From: Stutzerimonas stutzeri
Lineage (GTDB): Bacteria > Pseudomonadota > Gammaproteobacteria > Pseudomonadales > Pseudomonadaceae
Length of the DNA stretch: 60,119 bases
Assembly (NCBI RefSeq): GCF_024448985.1
Contig: NZ_JAMOII010000022.1
Span: 1-60,119 of the forward strand
Direction of reading: 5' to 3'
Shown: positions 25,271 to 35,700 of the stretch, one piece after another
Layout of the letters: every line of letters begins with the position of its first letter
Numbering within the stretch: position 1 is the first letter of the stretch
Notes under the pieces: generated by a model
Database searches by the model: none
Told to the model about the DNA's origin: nothing
What the model saw: the letters and a program-made list of their open reading frames with translations, nothing else
Translations under genes and position numbers: made by a program

Positions 25271-26200
25271 ATGCACCACTGGATGTATCGCGTGACAGCC
25301 CTTCTGCTTGCCCTCTGGCCTTTATTTGCGTTGATCGTTGCCGGCTATTTTCTACGGCTGAAAGAGTTCCCCAACGAGGCCTTTTGGCCTGGCGCCGAAC
25401 GAATCAACTATTTCGTCCTGTTCCCGGCGCTGCTGTTCAGCAGCCTGGCCACTGCGCCGCTGAACAATCCTGCACTGCCGCGCCTGGCCGGCGCGGTCAT
25501 GCTCGGACTGGGGCTGATATGGGTCGGACTGTTGCTGGTCAAGCGGACGCGCGGCTGGCCGGCCGCTCGCTTCGGCGCGGTTGCCCAGGGCGCACTACGC
25601 TTCAATACCTATCTGGGTCTGGCGGCGGTGGGCAGCCTGTTCGGCAAGGAAGGCCTGGCGCTGGCGGCGCTGATGCTGGCGCTGATGGTGCCGACGGTGA
25701 ACGTCATGTCGGTCTGGGCGCTGACCGCCGAGCGTGGCGTCAATGTGCGCTCGCTGTTGCTGCCGATCATCAAGAACCCGCTGATTCTCGCCTGTCTGGC
25801 CGGTGCGCTGGTGAACCTCGCAGGGCTGGGCTTGCCCGGCGGGACCGATCGACTATTGAGCCTGCTGGCCGCTGCCAGCTTACCGCTAGGGCTACTCTGC
25901 GTCGGCGCGGCACTCAAGCCGCAGGAGCTGAGCGGGGAGATCCCGGCGCTGGGCTGGAACAGCGCGACACGCCTGCTGGCCGTCCCGCTGCTGGCTTATG
26001 GCGTGGCGTTGGTGCTCGGATTACCGGACATGGAGACGACTATTCTGGTGCTGTTCTTCGCCCTCCCCACTGCACCCACCGCTTACGTCCTGACACGCCA
26101 ACTCGGCGGCGACAGTCACCTGATGGCCGGCATCATCACTCTGCAGACGCTGCTCGCTGCGGCCAGCTTGCCGCTGGTGCTGACGTTGTTGAGCGGCTGA
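25271..26200 (+). CDS. AEC family transporter (auxin efflux carrier-like)
   Basis: 309 aa from the ATG at 25271; an ATG at 25283 is equally possible because neither has a clear Shine-Dalgarno. About ten hydrophobic helices. LFALIVAGYFLRL at the N-terminus, FNTYLGLAAVGSLFGKEG, IIKNPLILACLAGALVNLAGLGLP and the C-terminal ALPTAPTAYVLTRQLGGD are hallmarks of the AEC (mem_trans) family. Bacterial members move dicarboxylates or amino acids; the substrate is unknown. It diverges from the diguanylate cyclase gene across about 140 bp. Confidence 0.85.
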   Translation: MHHWMYRVTALLLALWPLFALIVAGYFLRLKEFPNEAFWPGAERINYFVLFPALLFSSLATAPLNNPALPRLAGAVMLGLGLIWVGLLLVKRTRGWPAARFGAVAQGALRFNTYLGLAAVGSLFGKEGLALAALMLALMVPTVNVMSVWALTAERGVNVRSLLLPIIKNPLILACLAGALVNLAGLGLPGGTDRLLSLLAAASLPLGLLCVGAALKPQELSGEIPALGWNSATRLLAVPLLAYGVALVLGLPDMETTILVLFFALPTAPTAYVLTRQLGGDSHLMAGIITLQTLLAAASLPLVLTLLSG

Positions 26201-26493
26201 ACTACCGCGGCAATATGGTAAGAACCGTTAAGCGCACACACCACTTAGCAATTGCCCTCTCCGCACTCCGGCTCCCTTGTACATGGCCAGCCTCGATGGA
26301 AAGAGAAGCTTTCAGAAGCGATATCTTGCTGAACAACTGACAAGATTAGCGCAGCGTTTTTCGATATTGATACAACCTACCTGGTGTGATCCAATTCACG
26401 CCCTTTTTTAGTATGTGAGTATCCGGGACGACGCTCATGCGCTATACGCCCTGCTTGTCGAGCCGGAAAACGCCACCACCAGCAGGAGCTTCG

Positions 26494-27969
26494 GTGAACC
26501 TATCCCCTCCTAAAACACTCGGTCTCATCATTGGCACCATCGCCCTTAGCGGTTGCGCCTCACTCGACAATGCAGGCAAGAATTACGGAACAGCCATCGG
26601 CTGCGTGGGTGGCGCGGTACTGGGAGCCGGGCTGGCGTACGCGTTGACCGGCGATGCCGAGAAAGCCCTGATTGGCGGCGGTGCCGGTGCCGCCATCGGC
26701 TGTACTGCCGGACATAAGTGGCAGAGCCGCTTGCAGCGGCTGGAACAGCTAGCCAAGGAAGAAAACCTCAAGATTCAGCTGGAAACGCTGCAGACGCAGG
26801 ACGTGGCAACCGCTCATCCCGCGCCGGAACAAGCCGGTATCGTCGCTCACGTGCAGGATGAGGGAATGTTCCCGGTCGGAAGCGCCAGACTCAGCGTCGA
26901 AGGTGAACGCCAAGTACGCAAGCTCGCCGCCGCCTTTGCACCCAGCAAGGACGAGAAAACCGAAACCGCTATCCTCGTCGTCGGTCATACCGACGCAACG
27001 GGTAGTGCGTCGCTCAATCAGCGCCTGTCTCAACAGCGTGCCCGCGCGGTGGCTAATATCCTCGCAGAGCAGGGCATCGCGCGGGACCGCATGTATTTCC
27101 AGGGCGCAGGTGCGTCCCGCCCGATCGCTGATAATGCCGATGCCTCGCAACGCGGCAAAAACCGGCGAGTAGAGATCGTCGAAGTGTCCGACCGCAACGT
27201 GCTGGTCCAGCGCATCAACGCCGAGCGCAACAATCCCAAATACCTTGCCCATGGCACCGCGATCCAGGCGCCGCCACGCACCGTCAGCGCCGAGCCAAAG
27301 GCGAAGACCGAAAAGGCTCGCAGCAACAGCACCGGCGCCGCTGCCAGCACGGCGTCGACCAGCGCCAAGCCTGCTCGCCGCCACACCGGTGAGGTGCTCG
27401 ACTTCGGTGGTCAGCCAGTCGCCAACAGCAGCTGGACACTGGGCCAAGCCATCACGCCGAAGAAGGCAAGTGGCCTGGCGATCATCTCCAGCGCCTATGC
27501 CTCGGAAATCCCTATGCGCAGCTGCGAAAGCGACCGTCCGCGGGAATCCGGAGAAGTGCTCAACCTGGCTAGCGGCAAGGCTCTCGAAACGCGTGACACC
27601 ACCGATTATCTGCCTGGCTACAACAACCGTGTCTGGGCGCAACGGGTAAACGGCCATCTGGTGACCCTTTCGCCCGTGTCGATCCTTCGCGACGGTGCCA
27701 GTGTTGATCGACAGCCGTTCGTGCAAATCGTACCGAACTACGACAAGGGCAACCGTCAACCGCTGCAAAAGGCCAATGCGGTAGCCAACACGTACGAAGG
27801 TGAAGACCGCGTGCTGTATCGCGTCTTCCTGAAGAATCCCGAGGCGCCGCTGTCATGCATGGACGTGGTGTTCAGCAAGGGCAGCGCCAAAGCTACCGAG
27901 GGCGCGCTTTTTTATCCTGTTAGCAATGGCGAAAGCTATACCGCCCGGTTCGTGCCGATCCGTACATAA
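26494..27969 (+). CDS. OmpA-domain lipoprotein, first gene of an unassigned operon
   Basis: 491 aa from the GTG at 26494, chosen because AGGAG stands 5 nt ahead and because it places a signal peptide with lipobox LSGC (Cys21) at the very N-terminus; the ORF is open back to an ATG at 26437. After the lipidated Cys comes a glycine zipper (about 36-72), a short coiled coil (about 76-100), and an OmpA C-like peptidoglycan-binding domain (about 115-231) with GHTDATGS, LSQQRARAVANIL and RGKNRRVEI. An Ala/Lys/Ser linker (257-297) leads to a 190-residue C-terminal domain with two cysteines that I do not recognise. It probably tethers the outer membrane to the cell wall. The next gene starts 10 bp after its stop. 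Confidence 0.85.
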   Translation: MNLSPPKTLGLIIGTIALSGCASLDNAGKNYGTAIGCVGGAVLGAGLAYALTGDAEKALIGGGAGAAIGCTAGHKWQSRLQRLEQLAKEENLKIQLETLQTQDVATAHPAPEQAGIVAHVQDEGMFPVGSARLSVEGERQVRKLAAAFAPSKDEKTETAILVVGHTDATGSASLNQRLSQQRARAVANILAEQGIARDRMYFQGAGASRPIADNADASQRGKNRRVEIVEVSDRNVLVQRINAERNNPKYLAHGTAIQAPPRTVSAEPKAKTEKARSNSTGAAASTASTSAKPARRHTGEVLDFGGQPVANSSWTLGQAITPKKASGLAIISSAYASEIPMRSCESDRPRESGEVLNLASGKALETRDTTDYLPGYNNRVWAQRVNGHLVTLSPVSILRDGASVDRQPFVQIVPNYDKGNRQPLQKANAVANTYEGEDRVLYRVFLKNPEAPLSCMDVVFSKGSAKATEGALFYPVSNGESYTARFVPIRT

Positions 27970-27978
27970 AGGGAATTC

Positions 27979-29622
27979 ATGATGGAAGACTTCAGTTTCA
28001 ATGCGCTCATGGCCCTGGCCTGGGCAAACAAGCTGATCACCGGTGCGGTGATATCGACGCTATTGGCAGCCGTTCTGATCAAGTTTTATTGGGACAAGGT
28101 CGGCTACTTCCTGATGCGGACGTGGCATGGCGTACCCTTGGTCGGCACAGTCGCGCGCCTGGCCCGGGAAAGCACCAGCACCGATCACAAGCAGTGGCTG
28201 CTCAGCGAGACCTCACTGTGTAACAACTACTACGACTACTACCAGGACGTTGGCGAGAAGAGCGCGGACTACTACAACAAGTGCGAATCCTATCTGGATA
28301 CCATCGGCGAAGCGGGTCGCCGTGAGCGGCCGGTCTGGGTGATGACCCTGATATTCCTGCTGATTCTGTTCGAGGCCGTTGGTTTCGCCTACGTGCTGGT
28401 TCCCTTCATCAACCAGAACCTGTCATCCAATGACCAGACCTATCTCGGCTGGATGGCGGCTTTCCTGCTCTCGATCATTTCCGCCGGTTTCGCCGAGGCC
28501 GCTGGCCGGGCCATCCACCACAATTCGCTGGTCAACAAGGCCCGCCATTGGTGGGAAGGCGATCGTGACCCGAACAAGGTCACCCCGCTCAAGCAAATCC
28601 AGCCGGGCGTTCGCATCAAGGAGACAGAGAAGGACGAAGGCGGCAAGGACTACAACCGCATCCTCGCCCGTCTGGTGACCAATCAGAGCGTCACGCCGCG
28701 CCATAGTTGGATCATCGGCTGCGCTCTGGTAGTCATCATCATGGCCTGCGCCGCCTTTGGCATACGCGCTTATCAGCTCAAGAGCATGGAAACCGATATG
28801 GTCGGCAATCCCAGCGCATTTGCCGAACAGAGCTACGAAAGCGGCGCCAGTCCATTCGAGCTGCCTGACGAATCGGCTGCCATCAATGACGCAGCGACCG
28901 ACAGCATGCTTACCGACAAGATGGACGCGATCCGCAGCGCTTCGCTGATCACCTTCGTCGTGCTGTCGGTGATCTACGTTGCGATTCAGGCCGTAAGCGT
29001 CTGGCTTGCCTCGATTTTCGGCTTCGCCGGCATCGAGTCGAAAAAGGCCTGGGAATACACGCACCGGTTCAACAGCGCAATCGAACTGGAGCGCTGGATG
29101 GAAACCCAGCGCATAAAAATAGCCGCCCATGCCGACCACAAACTGCGCATGCTGCAGATGAAGCTGGCCAAGCGCGTCACCACTGACAGCAATGTGCAGG
29201 CGGCCCTGCATGGCGCACAAGGGCGCGACTTTAACGCTTTCGTCCTGCGCAAGCAGGAAGAAGCCGGCACTCACCGCACGCAGCCGCAACCGGTGTCTCA
29301 GGCCACCGCTTCTCGTCCCGCCGCACCGCGACTGGCAGCGGCTGAGCCGACTGCGGTCGTTGTCCCCGCACCGATCACCGAACCCATTGTGGTCGCCAAC
29401 CCGCCGGGGCAGATTGCCGAAAGCGCCGTGGTCAGTATCGTCAGCGGCCATTCAGTGGACACCGCCCCTGCCGTCGACCTGAGCGCGCTGCGCAGCAAGG
29501 ATCTGACGGGCTATAGCGATGAGCAACTGGCGACCATCTGCCGGGCAAAGGGTTACCCGTTTGAAGCCGTGCTGGCGCTGCGTGCCGATCAGCAATTGCT
29601 GAAAGATTTCGAAGGCATCTGA
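27979..29622 (+). CDS. Unknown polytopic membrane protein, second gene of the operon
   Basis: 547 aa, not recognised. Hydrophobic helices are at about 16-36, 120-143, 156-178, 243-264 and 320-350. The segment between helices 1 and 2 is Tyr-rich (NNYYDYYQDVGEKSADYYN). Between helices 3 and 4 is a charged loop, and between 4 and 5 an acidic one (YESGASPFELPDESAAINDA). After helix 5 comes a helical basic region, then a Pro/Ala/Val low-complexity linker (about 430-495) and a short acidic C-terminal module. No MotA/TolQ signature is visible. AGGG precedes the ATG. It lies between the OmpA lipoprotein and the VWA-like protein, with gaps of 9 and 0 bp, so the three are almost certainly co-expressed. 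Confidence 0.7.
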   Translation: MMEDFSFNALMALAWANKLITGAVISTLLAAVLIKFYWDKVGYFLMRTWHGVPLVGTVARLARESTSTDHKQWLLSETSLCNNYYDYYQDVGEKSADYYNKCESYLDTIGEAGRRERPVWVMTLIFLLILFEAVGFAYVLVPFINQNLSSNDQTYLGWMAAFLLSIISAGFAEAAGRAIHHNSLVNKARHWWEGDRDPNKVTPLKQIQPGVRIKETEKDEGGKDYNRILARLVTNQSVTPRHSWIIGCALVVIIMACAAFGIRAYQLKSMETDMVGNPSAFAEQSYESGASPFELPDESAAINDAATDSMLTDKMDAIRSASLITFVVLSVIYVAIQAVSVWLASIFGFAGIESKKAWEYTHRFNSAIELERWMETQRIKIAAHADHKLRMLQMKLAKRVTTDSNVQAALHGAQGRDFNAFVLRKQEEAGTHRTQPQPVSQATASRPAAPRLAAAEPTAVVVPAPITEPIVVANPPGQIAESAVVSIVSGHSVDTAPAVDLSALRSKDLTGYSDEQLATICRAKGYPFEAVLALRADQQLLKDFEGI

Positions 29623-30453
29623 ATGAAACTAAAAATGCTATGTGCCGCGCTGCTTTGCCTGCCTGTATTGGCACAAGCGGCGCAACGCAACGACATTCCG
29701 GACTGCTACGACTACGCCAAGATTAACCAGTACCGCCAGCCCGGTTCTGGCCGTGAGCTGACCGTGATCGTCGACCAGACAGTACCGATGCCAGAGAGCA
29801 TTCAGAAAGCCGCTTGGGGCCAGATCACCCGCTTCGTCAACGCTGGTGACCGGGTTCAGCTCTACAGCTTTTCAGCGTTCCTGCCTGATCAGTTCATGCA
29901 ATTGCGCTTTGCCGGCGAGCTGAATCAGCCGGTACCCGGCAAGAGTCGGGACTCAATCGGAATGCAATCGCTGCGCTCGTTTGACAAGTGCCTGAGTGAA
30001 CAGCAGGCATTCTTTCGCAAGAAATTCGGTCGTGAATTCGTCACCGTGCTGCGCGAAGCCTCTGAAGACATCCCGCGCAGCGAGATTTTTCACTCGCTAC
30101 GCGAGATCGGCAGCGATCTGGCGCAACAGCCCGCGGATGATCGAGTGGTCCTGTTGATTTCCGACATGCTGGAAAACAGCGAATTCGGAAGCTTCTATGC
30201 CAACAACCGCATTCGCGATCTGCAACCTTCAGCCGAGCTCAAGCGAGTGAGCGAAAAGCAGCTATTTGCCGACCTGCAGGGTGCGCGGGTGTATGTTGCA
30301 GGTGCCGGCCTGGTCACTCACGACGTCAAGCAGGCTTACCGCTCGGGCAAGACTATGGAACTGCTGGAGCAATTCTGGCGAGGCTACTTCCAAGGCTCGA
30401 ATGCCGAACTCGCCGCGTTTGGATCACCGAGCCTGAATGTTGAGCTTCACTAA
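29623..30453 (+). CDS. Secreted VWA-like protein, third gene of the operon
   Basis: 276 aa. A signal peptide ends AQAA near residue 20. The mature protein resembles a von Willebrand factor A fold: strand ELTVIVDQT (Asp51, at the position of the first MIDAS residue, but DxTxP rather than DxSxS), helix, then VQLYSFSAF, and a later strand VVLLISDMLENS (Asp181). Three cysteines are present in the mature part near residues 28 and 123. Loss of the serines suggests a degenerate metal site. Its ATG directly follows the TGA of the preceding gene. Fold assignment is by eye; function is unknown. Confidence 0.65.
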   Translation: MKLKMLCAALLCLPVLAQAAQRNDIPDCYDYAKINQYRQPGSGRELTVIVDQTVPMPESIQKAAWGQITRFVNAGDRVQLYSFSAFLPDQFMQLRFAGELNQPVPGKSRDSIGMQSLRSFDKCLSEQQAFFRKKFGREFVTVLREASEDIPRSEIFHSLREIGSDLAQQPADDRVVLLISDMLENSEFGSFYANNRIRDLQPSAELKRVSEKQLFADLQGARVYVAGAGLVTHDVKQAYRSGKTMELLEQFWRGYFQGSNAELAAFGSPSLNVELH

Positions 30454-30472
30454 CGATACGCGGACGCGAGAG

Positions 30473-30498
30473 CAGCGAGCTAATCTCGTTGCTCGCTG
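30473..30498 (+). terminator. Hairpin after the three-gene operon
   Basis: Perfect 8-bp stem CAGCGAGC / GCTCGCTG (30473-30480 and 30491-30498) with a 10-nt loop, 19 bp past the last stop. There is little T-run. The remaining gap to recD (to 30682) shows nothing else. Confidence 0.5.
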
Positions 30499-30682
30499 TC
30501 GTTATCAGCCAAAATCGCCACAGGGATGCTTGTAGCAACGATCCTTGTGGCTTGCTCAATGGCAGTTACGATTGTCGAGTTTCGCAAGGGCCTACCGGAA
30601 CAAAGTTCAACAGCGCTTACGCACAGCCGCTTAACGAAACGGGTGCGGCGGTTGCCAACCTTGATCACTATCGCCCCCATGT

Positions 30683-32533
30683 TCAGAACAGACTCAGTTG
30701 GTCGTGTGGTGGCTCGCTGGAGTATTGTGCGATCACCAGCTCAACAGCGGGCTGCTGCGCTCCGTCGAGAGCGAGACAATCCGCCAGTCCCGCCGCCCGC
30801 TCTGCGCGAGTGCCAACTGCCTCGGCGACGCGCGCCGGCGGCGCCCATATCTCCACCTTGCGCTTGGCGCGCGTGATGCCAGTGTAGAAAAGCGAGCGCG
30901 TCAGCAGCGGGCTGGGTTGTTCGGGCAGCGCCAGCAGCACCTCGGCGAATTCCGAGCCCTGACTCTTGTGTACGGTCATGGCGAAGGCGCTGTCATGGCT
31001 AGGCAATCGCGCCGGGGCGAAGCCGCGATAGCCCTCGTCACCCTCGAAGAACACCCGCAAGCCATGCTCGGTTTTCAGGCACAACCCGATATCTCCATTG
31101 AACAGGCCCAGCGCGTAGTCGTTCTGCCGAACCATTACTGCTCGACCGGGATACCAGCGCTCACGAGCCGGCACGCCGAGTCGCCGCTTGAAGCGCATCT
31201 CCAGCGCCTCGTTGATGCCCGTGACACCAAAAGTACCTTCGCGCTGGGCGGTCAGTGCGCGGAACCCATTGAAGGCCTCGAATGCTGCAGCCGGATCGGC
31301 TTGTCGTGCAGCCTGGACGTAAGGCGCGTAGCCCTGTTCGAGGCGCTCGATCAGCGTGCCGGGGCTGGGTGCGGCGTTCCAGGCCAGATCCAGGCGGCCT
31401 TCCTGCAGCAACGCAACGGTGCCTTTGGCATCGCCGCCGTTGATTCGCCGCGCCAGTTCACCGATGCCGCTGTCACCCGCGAAACGATGGCTATGGGTCA
31501 GTAACACCACTGCATCCCCCAGCCGCGAGCTCGGCGTTTCGGCAGGCACGGGCTGGCCGGTGATGCGCTCCAGATCGGCTGCTGCCTGAGCATCGAAGCC
31601 GCGGCCTTCACAGAGCTCGGCGAACACCGCACCGGCTTCCACCGCGGCCAATTGGTCTTTGTCGCCCAGCAGGATCAAGCGTGCTTTGGGTGGCAGCGCG
31701 ACGACCAACTTCGCCATCAGCGCCAGATCGACCATGGACGCTTCGTCCACGACCAGCACGTCCAATGCCAGCGGATTCGAAGCATCGTGGCGCACCTTCG
31801 GGCTATCGCCTCGACTGCCGAGCAGGCGGTGCAGGGTACGCGCCTCGTCCGGCAGGGCATCTTTGACGGCATCGCTTACGGGCAAATCCGCCTTGGCGTT
31901 GCGGATCGCTTCGGCCATACGCGCCGCCGCCTTGCCAGTCGGTGCCGCGAGGCCAATTGCCAATCGCTCGCCGCCGGGCTGCTCCAGCAGCGCCGCCAGT
32001 AACCGCACCACGGTGGTGGTCTTGCCGGTGCCGGGGCCACCGGAGATCACGGCCAGTCGCCGGCGTACCGCCTGAGCTGCAGCGAGGCGCTGCCAGTCGG
32101 GGCTTTGCTGATTGAAGGCAAACAGCCGCGCCAGGCTGTCGCTGAGCTGTCTTTCGTCCACTTCCGCTGTATCCGCCGCACGGGCTAGCAGCTGTTCCGC
32201 CAGTTGCTGTTCATATGCCTGGTAACGGGCCAGGTAAAGCCGATTATCAGCAAGGATTAGCGGCGCGTAATCGCCGGGCGAGCCGATCAAAGGCGATGCC
32301 GCTAGTTGCGCGCGCCAGGCTGCGAGTGGCGGCAAACTGAAATCGACTTCGGGCCAGGGACGCTTGCCGGCAATGCGCTGCAGCGGCAGGCAGACGTCGC
32401 CTTCAGCCAACGCTTCACAGCAGAGCGCGGCGGCGAGCAGCACCGGCTCTGCAGCCATTGGATCGAGGCGCCGCAAACTGTCTATGAAGGCACGCCCCAA
32501 CGGGCCGAGTGGCAGGTCCGAGCAAAGCGTCAT
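30683..32533 (-). CDS. recD: Exodeoxyribonuclease V subunit alpha (RecD)
   Basis: 616 aa from the ATG at 32533, preceded by GGAGGG at 7 nt. A much longer in-frame ORF extends to 32842 but runs through a dispersed repeat and into recB, so it is rejected. Motor motifs: Walker A ISGGPGTGKTTTVVRLLAALL, Walker B VLVVDEASMVDLALM, motif III LILLGDKDQLAAVEAGAVF and C-terminal TVHKSQGSEFAEVLL. RecD is the 5'-3' helicase of RecBCD, for double-strand break repair and degradation of foreign DNA. Last gene of recC-recB-recD. Confidence 0.95.
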   Translation of the reverse strand: MTLCSDLPLGPLGRAFIDSLRRLDPMAAEPVLLAAALCCEALAEGDVCLPLQRIAGKRPWPEVDFSLPPLAAWRAQLAASPLIGSPGDYAPLILADNRLYLARYQAYEQQLAEQLLARAADTAEVDERQLSDSLARLFAFNQQSPDWQRLAAAQAVRRRLAVISGGPGTGKTTTVVRLLAALLEQPGGERLAIGLAAPTGKAAARMAEAIRNAKADLPVSDAVKDALPDEARTLHRLLGSRGDSPKVRHDASNPLALDVLVVDEASMVDLALMAKLVVALPPKARLILLGDKDQLAAVEAGAVFAELCEGRGFDAQAAADLERITGQPVPAETPSSRLGDAVVLLTHSHRFAGDSGIGELARRINGGDAKGTVALLQEGRLDLAWNAAPSPGTLIERLEQGYAPYVQAARQADPAAAFEAFNGFRALTAQREGTFGVTGINEALEMRFKRRLGVPARERWYPGRAVMVRQNDYALGLFNGDIGLCLKTEHGLRVFFEGDEGYRGFAPARLPSHDSAFAMTVHKSQGSEFAEVLLALPEQPSPLLTRSLFYTGITRAKRKVEIWAPPARVAEAVGTRAERAAGLADCLALDGAQQPAVELVIAQYSSEPPHDQLSLF

Positions 32534-32733
32534 TGCGCGTCCCTCCACGGGGTAGGCGTCGCGCCGTTCAAGCGGTGGGCTGAAGCCCACCCTACAGAAA
32601 TAGTGGAGCGCCCCGGCCCCATATTTGCCACCCGTAGGGTGGGCTTTAGCCCACCAAAACGTGCAGCCCCACATAGGCGTTGCGCTGAAGCAGACCTCTC
32701 GCCTCGCTTCACAGAACATGCTTCTCGCATCAT
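32530..32733 (-). CDS. Repeat-derived 67-aa ORF bridging recB and recD
   Basis: Its ATG overlaps the recB stop (ATGA at 32733-32730) and its TGA overlaps the recD ATG (ATGA at 32533-32530). Most of it is translated from the two palindromic repeats (peptides like FGGLKPTLRVAN and VGWASAHRLNG are repeat signatures, not protein domains). It could keep ribosomes moving from recB into recD across the insert. No function of the peptide is suggested. Confidence 0.35.
   Translation of the reverse strand: MMREACSVKRGERSASAQRLCGAARFGGLKPTLRVANMGPGRSTISVGWASAHRLNGATPTPWRDAQ
32574..32655. repeat. Paired inverted copies of the dispersed palindrome between recB and recD
   Basis: GGTGGGCTGAAGCCCACC plus CTAC (32574-32595) and GTAG plus GGTGGGCTTTAGCCCACC (32634-32655) face each other across 38 bp. 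Each is self-complementary and the two also pair with each other. They account for most of the 196-bp gap between two genes that normally abut or overlap. Confidence 0.88.
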
Positions 32734-35700
32734 CTACCCTCCTCGAACAACCGGTCCAGCGCATCGAGTAGCGCATCGTCCGGGCGGGCGAAATACACGC
32801 CTGCCTCGGGCATGCCGCGCAGGAACAGATAGAACGCACCACCCAGCTGCTCGTCGCGGAATTCGGCCAGGCGCTGGCGCAGGAAGCGACGCAGCGCCAC
32901 CAGATAGATCAGGTATTGCAGGTAGTAATGCTCGCCAGCCAGCGCCTGTAGCAGCCGCTCGCCACCGTAATAGGTTGCATCCGGCCCCAGCCAATTGGAC
33001 TTGTAGTCGGCGATGTACCACCGCCCCTCGTGCTCGAAGGTGAGGTCGATGAATCCCTTGAGAAAGCCCTTGAGGTTGTCGAATTCCAATCGCGCCGCCG
33101 CTTCGCGCAGGGGCGCAGCCAGGCCGTTGGCCGGGTCGGTGAGCAGCGTGCGCAGGCGCGCCACGTCCAGATCCCGTACCGGAAAGGTAAAGCCCAATTC
33201 AGGCAGACGCCTGGCCGACTGCAACGTGGCAAGCGTAAGACCTTCGCCGTCCAAGTCGGTCTCCAGTACTTGCTGGAGATGCGCGGTGGCGATGTCTTTC
33301 CATTCCAGCGGCAACCCATAGGCTTGCAACGCCGGCTCGACCAGCTCGGGCAGTTCACCTTTGCCGCGTGCCCAATCTTCGAGAATGGCGTGCAGGCAGG
33401 TACCGGCCCGCGCGCCGCGCGGAAAGGCGTAGAAGCCACTGCCCGGTTCGCCAGCGCTGGGGATCGCCAGTGCGTCACGATCGGGCGCCTCCATGTGCAT
33501 GCCCGACGCCAAACCGGTGAAGCTGCCGATACGCCAGGCACTGTGCAGGCTGCGGTTGAGGTGCGACAAGTGCGCGGGCGGTGCGGCGCGCCCCGGCCCT
33601 TGTGCACTGGCTTCGCGCTGCTCGAATGGCAGGCAGGCCATGCGGCCATCGCTTTGCCCGACCAGGCGTTCGATGGCCAGGCGCAGGCTGCCACCGTTGA
33701 AGTCGGCCAGATGGTTGCCCAGCTCGGTCAGCGGCTCGGCACCCTGAAGCTCGCGCCCGTGCAGCAGCCAGGCCAGGGCGCTGCTGTGCAGACCCTCTTC
33801 GGCCAGGCTGCCATCCTTCTTCGGCTTGCACAGGCACACCGGCCCCCAATGCAACCAGAGCCGGTCGCGGGCCCGGGTCAGCGCGACGTAGGTCAGGCGC
33901 AGCTGTTCGGCGAACACTTCCTCGCGAGCGCGTTCGAGATGGTCGTCCAGCGCATCGCTACCCAGGTCCAGCAACGGCTGACCGTCAGCATCGTGGCAAC
34001 GGGCGCTGTCGCGGTTCTTGCCAAGTAGCTTGCCGTCCCAGAGGAACGGGCAGAACACCAACAGGTATTCCAGGCCCTTGCTGGTGTGGATAGTGACGAT
34101 CTGCACCCGCTCGGCATCGCTTTCAAGGCGCAACAGGGCTTCCTCGACGGCCCCTTCGCTGCTGCGCTGGGCATTGAACCAGGCGAGCAGCGGTTCGAGT
34201 CCCGGCCGCAGCAGGCTTTCGGCTTGCAGCAATTCGCCCAGGTGCAAGAGATTGGTCAGCCGGCGCTCGCCATCGACGCGCGCCAGCAGCCGTTCAGCCA
34301 CTGCCTGCTCATCGAGCCACGCGCGAAAGACGCGCATGAAGCCTTGCTGCTGCCAAAGCTGGTGGTAGCGCTCGGCGGCTTCTCGCTCGGCGTCCCACTG
34401 CTGCTGATCATCTTGGCAGCGTGCAAGATCGGCAGCGCTGCGGCCCAGTAGACGCGTGGCCAGCGCATAGCGCAGCACGCCCTCGCGGCCAGGTTCGGCG
34501 TATGCGGCCAAGACCGCGGCGAGTTCAGCGGCCTCTTCGCTGCGCCAGACGCTGTCGCGCCCCCGGCGCACACTGGGCACGCCACGCGCGGACAGTTCGT
34601 CAGCAATCAACCCTGCCTGACGGTGATTGGCCACCAGCACGGCAATGTCGCCACCCTTGAGTGGGGTGAACGCGCCATCCTTGTCAAAACCGGCGCGGCC
34701 TTCTGCTGCGGCCGCCAATTGCAGGGCGATACGTCGGGCAGTGTCGCTCGCGGCCAACTGCGAGGCCTCGCCTTTGCCCAGCGGATCATCGCCCAGCCAA
34801 ACCAGCGACAACGGCGCGGCTTCGCCCTCTTCCACCAGGCGCAGGCTGGCGCGCGGTTTCTGTGCCGCGCCCACCGATGGGTACTGCAGATCGTCTTGGG
34901 CGAACGGCTGCGGATGGTTGAACAGCTGGTTCAGAGCGGCGATCAGCTCCGGGGTCGAGCGGTAGTTGGTTGGCAGGTTGTAGGGGCGGTCGGCCTGATT
35001 GCGTGCCGTGATGTAAGTCGCCAGGTCCGCGCCGCGAAAGGCGTAGATCGCCTGTTTGGGATCGCCGACGAAGCACAATGATGCAGCGCTGCCTTTGGCA
35101 TAGATGCGGTTGAAGATGGCGTATTGGATCGGGTCGGTGTCCTGAAACTCGTCGATCAGCGCCAACGGATAGGTGGTCCGCAGCGAGGCGGCCAGGTCAT
35201 CCCCGACCGGCCCTTGCAGTGCCAGATCCAGACGATTAAGCAGGTCATCGAAGGCCAGCAACCGCTGTGCCGCCTTGCGTTCCGGCAGCTCGCGGTTCAG
35301 TCGCGCCAACAGAGCGACCTGCAGGGCGATCAGCCGTTGCTTGCCCGCCGGCAGCGCTTCAGCGACCTGATCGGCCAGCTCGTCCAGCGCATGGGCCAGC
35401 TCGCACACCGGCGCGTCGAAGCCCTTCTTGCAGGCCTTGCTCAAAGCGCGCACACCGAACTTCGCGGCACCGTCGGGCAGATCGAACATAACCGCCGGGT
35501 CTGCGAAATAGGCGTCCAGTTCAGTCTGCCACGGTGTGAACTTGATGCTTTTGTGAGTGCTTTGGCTGAGCCCGCCATGCGCCTGGAGCTCGGCGACCCA
35601 GGCGGTGCCCGCCTCGTGCCACAGCGCTGCGGCCCGCTGCCAGGCCGCTTCGACCGGCCGCAGGTCGGCTGCAACCGGCATATCTTGTGGCTCAACCCGC

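Follow-up and report, generated by a model that had tools for sequence, protein, structure and literature searches.

The described system whose plan comes closest to the locus analysed here is Zorya. In a study of Zorya (PMC11890865), ZorA and ZorB are described as a MotAB-like pair that includes a wall-binding domain and in which an Asp of ZorB is essential; ZorA is reported to have a long cytosolic part. Our locus lies in a 60,119-nucleotide stretch of the Stutzerimonas stutzeri contig NZ_JAMOII010000022.1 (the window, to which all positions refer). It comprises three genes for an OmpA-type lipoprotein (protein 1), a five-helix membrane protein (protein 2) and a secreted protein resembling von Willebrand factor A (VWA) domains (protein 3). 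Judged from gene order and profile searches, the three genes are one conserved unit that matches no named system in the libraries searched, and two of its three families are unnamed. The Tol-Pal system also follows a general plan of a wall-binding lipoprotein with an inner-membrane partner. A first-pass annotation of the window had proposed an envelope-spanning assembly for wall sensing, transport or defence, and this interpretation as a whole is partly supported by our analysis.

The genes occupy positions 26494–27969, 27979–29622 and 29623–30453 of the plus strand, and the intergenic gaps of 9 and 0 bp agree with the tight packing described in the first-pass annotation. Scanning of genome contigs with the profile of the VWA-like protein confirmed 130 loci, and gene orders were counted in the 80 best. 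The order OmpA, membrane and VWA-like gene was complete in 69 of these 80 loci, with median gaps of 17 and −4 bp. Therefore, the association is not due to chance, and the proposed operon withstood the test that its proposers had set for it, namely whether the genes co-occur elsewhere. The OmpA gene is located downstream instead in three loci, all from Vibrionaceae, and five loci are truncated by a contig end at the membrane gene or shortly before it. Of the remaining three loci, L096 has no recognizable OmpA gene, in L097 the OmpA and membrane genes are fragmentary, and in L115 the membrane gene is represented by its 3′ part alone. Divergent complete modules were found at L161 and L164. In all six annotated plasmid regions, from Pantoea (2), Paraburkholderia (2), Acidiphilium and Aliarcobacter, an "OmpA family protein" is followed by two hypothetical genes, with one exception in naming, the Aliarcobacter membrane gene, which is annotated for its zinc ribbon. 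Two more plasmid regions are unannotated, and the module genes were located there by a search for open reading frames (ORFs). Across 40 sets, the pairwise distances of the three proteins are correlated (r 0.79–0.92, versus at most 0.18 in label permutations), although the comparison has no housekeeping control and common descent alone would produce the same. Genes in the fetched loci were predicted by greedily taking the longest ORFs, a rule that sometimes preferred false ORFs, as in L048, where antisense ORFs displaced module genes; therefore, gaps and starts are approximate and the neighbour counts given below are rough.

Protein 1 (491 residues) was defined from its ORF, Pfam matches and relatives, and it begins with a GTG codon. 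A longer reading frame from an ATG at 26437 is also open, but it would place the lipobox unusually far in. Positions 26494–26556 of the plus strand encode the lipoprotein signal peptide with its lipobox, LSGC (Cys21), and the Cys is found in 45 of 46 relatives. The residue after the lipobox Cys (+2) usually guides the membrane destination of a lipoprotein. It is Ala in the window protein and Ala, Gln, Ser or Val in 34, 6, 3 and 2 family members, respectively, and Asp occurs in none of the 45 Cys-bearing relatives; therefore, by this rule, protein 1 is predicted to reside in the outer membrane. A glycine zipper (26596–26724, plus strand) was recognized weakly by PF05433 (E 8e-4, 19.7 bits, below the curated cut-off), and the OmpA peptidoglycan-binding domain (26866–27165, plus strand) clearly by PF00691 (75–78 bits). 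They are followed by a new C-terminal domain (27400–27966, plus strand), delineated from family alignments, with invariant Cys344, Cys455, Arg443 and Asp457. Neither Pfam nor the PDB offers a convincing relative of this domain: the best Pfam match among the 46 members, seen in a single one, has E 0.006, and the best PDB match E 0.14. The composition of lipobox, zipper, OmpA domain and new C-terminal domain noted earlier thus holds, the zipper only below its cut-off. Within the module, protein 1 is the only one with PHROGs matches.

Protein 3 (276 residues, 29623–30453) was characterized from its alignment and a VWA profile match. Its signal peptide was assigned by eye, and it contains two invariant Cys residues, Cys28 and Cys123. 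As a single sequence, it has no match in Pfam, NCBIfam, PADLOC or the PDB. However, hhalign comparison of the 52-member family profile with a profile of 20 VWA_2 relatives, which we take to be BatA/BatB-like, gave Prob 85.7 and E 5.5e-6, versus Prob 0.2 for two reversed profiles and 0.8 for the best of 50 column shuffles. This result supports a VWA fold for protein 3, as had been suggested, with a VWA-like core at residues 38–229 (29734–30309, plus strand). The other matches are weak: the sole PDB match of the family profile was an integrin I domain, aligned across the metal-site region at E 0.28, the VWA models of Pfam matched at most 3 and those of NCBIfam 1 of the 52 members, and no Pfam or NCBIfam model describes the family convincingly. 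The metal ion-dependent adhesion site (MIDAS) of VWA domains has the motif DxSxS, T, D. The alignment columns of the 52 members contain metal-site-like residues on the plus strand at D51 and T53 (29773–29781), S153 (30079–30081) and D181 (30163–30165); D51, T53 and D181 are present in all 52, and position 153 is Ser in 47 and Thr in 5. Residues like those of a MIDAS thus occupy four of its five positions, with T53 in place of Ser, and the second Ser is not conserved. Of the degenerate DxTxP motif assigned in the first-pass annotation, the Asp and Thr are conserved, whereas the Pro (Pro55) is kept in just 20 of the 52 members.

Protein 2 (547 residues, 27979–29622, plus strand) has five hydrophobic segments, a Tyr-rich segment (residues 84–105) and a long cytosolic tail, in line with the earlier description of a polytopic protein. 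Loop charges indicate that its topology is likely N-out/C-in. Glu132 in the second transmembrane helix, Arg263 and Gln337 are each invariant in the 54 members aligned, and residue 173, close to where the third helix reaches the cytosol, is His in 47, Glu in 6 and Asp in 1, that is, ionisable in all of them. On this topology, residues 264–318 form a large periplasmic loop. Comparison of the tails (29017–29619, plus strand) revealed a linker rich in Ala and Pro and a small, lineage-dependent tip: several helical-looking kinds, zinc ribbons in Campylobacterota and one HTH_17-like form. Domain matches in the tails are few (HTH_17 in 1, zinc ribbon in 1 and Rho_N in 3 of the 54). The cytosolic tips look exchanged: the L088 tail has a helix-turn-helix-like end, to which the HTH_17 match was linked by eye, and the tails of two Campylobacterota, L031 and L113, have zinc ribbons. 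No match to protein 2 was found in Pfam at E up to 1 or in PHROGs, and in NCBIfam there were two matches far below threshold (best E 0.016). A PycTM match in one of the 54 members (E 0.0027) was taken as chance, and this identity was rejected.

The invariant Glu132 and the ionisable residue 173 would allow an ion path. The unit might then work like Zorya without being its kin: the five-helix protein would conduct ions, the wall-bound lipoprotein would gate it via the VWA-like protein, and the tail would signal. The invariant Gln337 and Arg263 fit such a mechanism, as do the wall-binding OmpA domain and the long cytosolic part, which is also reported for ZorA (PMC11890865). However, we regard it as quite unlikely. 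Sequence kinship to MotA/ExbB is lacking: hhalign of the 54-row protein 2 alignment against 18 MotA/ExbB relatives gave Prob 0.5 and E 0.12. None of the ZorA models matched the window protein, and ZorA2 and ZorA3 matched one of the 54 members each (E 0.0012 and 0.017). Moreover, the facing of residues 132 and 173 is only conjectural, and a lone charged residue per helix may be structural.

The unit is absent from the same site in the relatives compared. In blastn comparison with the module-free relative L147, homology ends at approximately 26200 and restarts at approximately 30565, delimiting an acquired segment of approximately 26201–30564 (strand not applicable); in five other relatives, it restarts at approximately 30618–30782. 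The segment is flanked upstream by a gene that is presumably an AEC-type transporter gene (25271–26200, start approximate, plus strand) and downstream by a gene that we take, also from the first-pass annotation, to be recD (30683–32842, minus strand), both outside the module. These two genes adjoin each other without the module in all nine relatives fetched, out of 40 having recD; therefore, the AEC–recD interval is an insertion site. The G+C content of the three-gene unit is 59.6%, versus 62.6% for the window. No integrase gene is present in the acquired segment according to the ORF list, and no convincing flanking repeats were found at the insert. The proximity of recBCD, which had been considered possibly fortuitous, is not conserved: among 94 related loci, with flanks of up to 10 kb and some shorter, recBCD lies near the module in one other locus (L048), and a functional tie to recBCD is not supported. 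The recD/AEC neighbourhood may nevertheless be an insertion hotspot: in L048, from P. ullengensis, the module adjoins recBCD and the VWA-like protein is 54% identical to that of the window; in P. seleniipraecipitans (L054), the module is close to an AEC-type gene. Seven promoter patterns were not enriched in 63 upstream regions, for which the start codons were guessed by script. By eye, a stretch resembling GTGATCCAAT was noticed at 26380–26405 and also upstream of gene 1 in L039 and L044.

The distribution of the unit is patchy. The VWA-like protein was found in 1 of 56 genomes of the genus; of 274 genomes in a class sample, 9 have it, six as solo forms. Protein 2 was found in 17 of 248 genomes of the family, spread over 6 of 19 genera. 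A phylum sample of 398 genomes gave 11 matches to it, two being weak and confined to the tail. Both unnamed genes occur together in the same 20 plasmid records, one of which, at 4.9 Mb, is probably a mislabelled chromosome. Overall, the unit ranges over Campylobacterota and the alpha-, beta- and gammaproteobacteria. The closest copy by protein 2 (G824, 76%) belongs to another genus and occupies another site, with homology detectable only inside the genes. In the tree, the window protein groups (98/90) with its counterparts from Pseudomonas huaxiensis and Pseudomonas sp. Irchel 3E13, and a Tatumella copy on a long branch falls within a Pseudomonas group. An Enterobacter copy had no DNA match in 20,395 E. 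coli records. Horizontal mobility with patchy distribution appears to be the best reading of these data. The module copy on a contig labelled Emticicia (L091, Bacteroidota) groups with copies from betaproteobacteria, which probably reflects a binning error.

The lipobox, the OmpA domain, the VWA-like protein and the five-helix protein with its tail together make a plan that fits an assembly through both membranes, and the pattern of gain and loss fits an accessory function in conflict or stress better than housekeeping. We therefore favour, tentatively and at less than an even chance, the reading that the unit spans both membranes as a transducer anchored to the wall and serves in conflict or under envelope stress. 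The lipoprotein would sit in the outer membrane and grip peptidoglycan. The VWA-like protein could make a metal-dependent contact that joins the C-terminal domain of the lipoprotein to the loop of residues 264–318 in the membrane protein. A disturbance of the wall or outer membrane by a phage, a rival's weapon or stress might then be relayed via the helices to the cytosolic tail, whose lineage-specific tip would recruit a host factor.

Several observations weigh against this transducer. No defence-island signal was detected: in 118 sampled neighbour ORFs, the commonest Pfam family, LysR, occurs five times (E up to 1e-8), and no PADLOC model has more than two matches (E up to 1e-10), a count made without a base-rate control. 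The scattered single PADLOC matches among the neighbours, some of them strong, are to DpdE, ZorD, RtcR-CARF, MzaA and MkoC models. Relatives of the VWA-like protein are absent from the phage records and viral contigs searched, and a phage or viral origin was rejected for that reason. In L096, the membrane and VWA-like genes occur without an OmpA gene, and in five or six fetched loci (L160 begins at a contig end) the VWA-like protein occurs without the other two; thus, the partners seem dispensable in some cases. As a separate observation, two groups of carriers (L048, L052, L054, L099, L106 and L109) have TerC-type or DUF475-type genes less than 10 kb from the module; these loci were chosen by motif and by eye, and their families were counted by Pfam.

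The neighbours also bear on a different account, in which the unit is an accessory envelope system unrelated to conflict, serving transport, polymer export or outer-membrane maintenance and useful in some habitats. Many neighbours, including those in the annotated plasmid regions, are metabolic, regulatory or transport genes, and many carriers are plant- and soil-associated. One gene family directly follows the VWA-like gene in five loci (L082, L089, L097, L100 and L101; positions were seen in four), and Pfam confirmed it as LemA in the two scanned (L082 and L101), the L082 protein ending in a weak zinc-ribbon match. However, no fourth gene family appears in more than 12 of 88 loci (the most frequent being LysR-type), once a 15-locus cluster consisting of antisense ORFs within the module is set aside. 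Hence, no enzyme, pump or export ATPase accompanies the unit as a rule. We consider this account somewhat unlikely.

A third account, a motility-related accessory, arises from the six solo VWA-like relatives (L156–L160 and L162), which form one side of a tree branch. Lipoprotein-sized and FlgT-like genes lie beside four of them (L156, L157, L159 and L162; FlgT in two by eye). Pfam confirmed FlgT in both proteins scanned and LPP20 above the cut-off in two of three (L156 and L162). The FlgT and LPP20 families are known from flagellar outer-membrane rings. In contrast, L158 has no such neighbours, L160 is cut by the contig end, and the solo proteins are a separate clade. Flagellin is present in 16 of 17 tested carriers versus 330 of 396 genomes of the phylum sample and is thus no more telling than the base rate; the sole tested carrier without flagellin, G216, has the membrane and VWA-like genes. 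No flagellar family is among the 25 commonest of 101 module-neighbour families. A motility link is very improbable and was rejected.

In a stronger form of the wall-anchored transducer, the unit would represent a new, widespread and mobile family of envelope defence or conflict systems, with a peptidoglycan-bound lipoprotein, a metal-dependent VWA link, an ion-responsive five-helix protein and interchangeable tips, independent of the MotA-like Zorya. We consider this form unlikely. The newness of the unit rests on its composition and on its failure to match known systems, and not on a known function; the OmpA and VWA domains themselves are familiar. It is nevertheless a widespread mobile unit, found also on plasmids, with two core proteins that are unnamed in the libraries searched.

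The earlier statement that no named system has this composition is consistent with our searches, in which Pfam, NCBIfam and PHROGs yielded nothing convincing for proteins 2 and 3, and no paper on this operon was found in the open-access literature (PubMed Central). Protein 1 resembles OmpA lipoproteins of the YiaD/Pal type in its lipobox, glycine zipper and OmpA domain; however, it scores 135.9 bits against the YiaD equivalog NF053611, below the curated cut-off of 175, has an extra new C-terminal domain and is encoded in an operon with two unnamed families. Protein 3 shares with VWA_2-type proteins the VWA-like core and the D-x-T/S, S/T and D metal-site columns, but it is secreted, has an invariant Cys pair and lacks the second MIDAS Ser. 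The unit is similar to Tol-Pal in general plan, a wall-binding lipoprotein with an inner-membrane partner, whereas no TolQ/ExbB-like protein was detected in it by profile.

The unit and Zorya both combine an inner-membrane protein that has a long cytosolic portion with a wall-binding domain of the OmpA type in the periplasm, and ZorB models match protein 1 at approximately residues 96–241. ZorC, ZorD and ZorE are not directly beside the module in the immediate flanks compared (the AEC-type gene and recD), and ZorD models matched one member each among the 118 neighbours, at other loci. The unit differs in that its OmpA protein is a lipoprotein that opens with a lipobox signal and not a helix-anchored protein like ZorB, whose transmembrane helix bears the ion-path Asp, its membrane protein is not MotA-like, and its third protein is VWA-like. 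Because protein 2 is not MotA/ZorA-like, the unit is not Zorya, and membership was rejected for want of both a MotA-like partner and a helix-anchored OmpA protein, as the first-pass annotation had anticipated. Should the unit sense or resist attack on the envelope, it would offer a second route to wall-coupled signalling, unrelated to that of Zorya.

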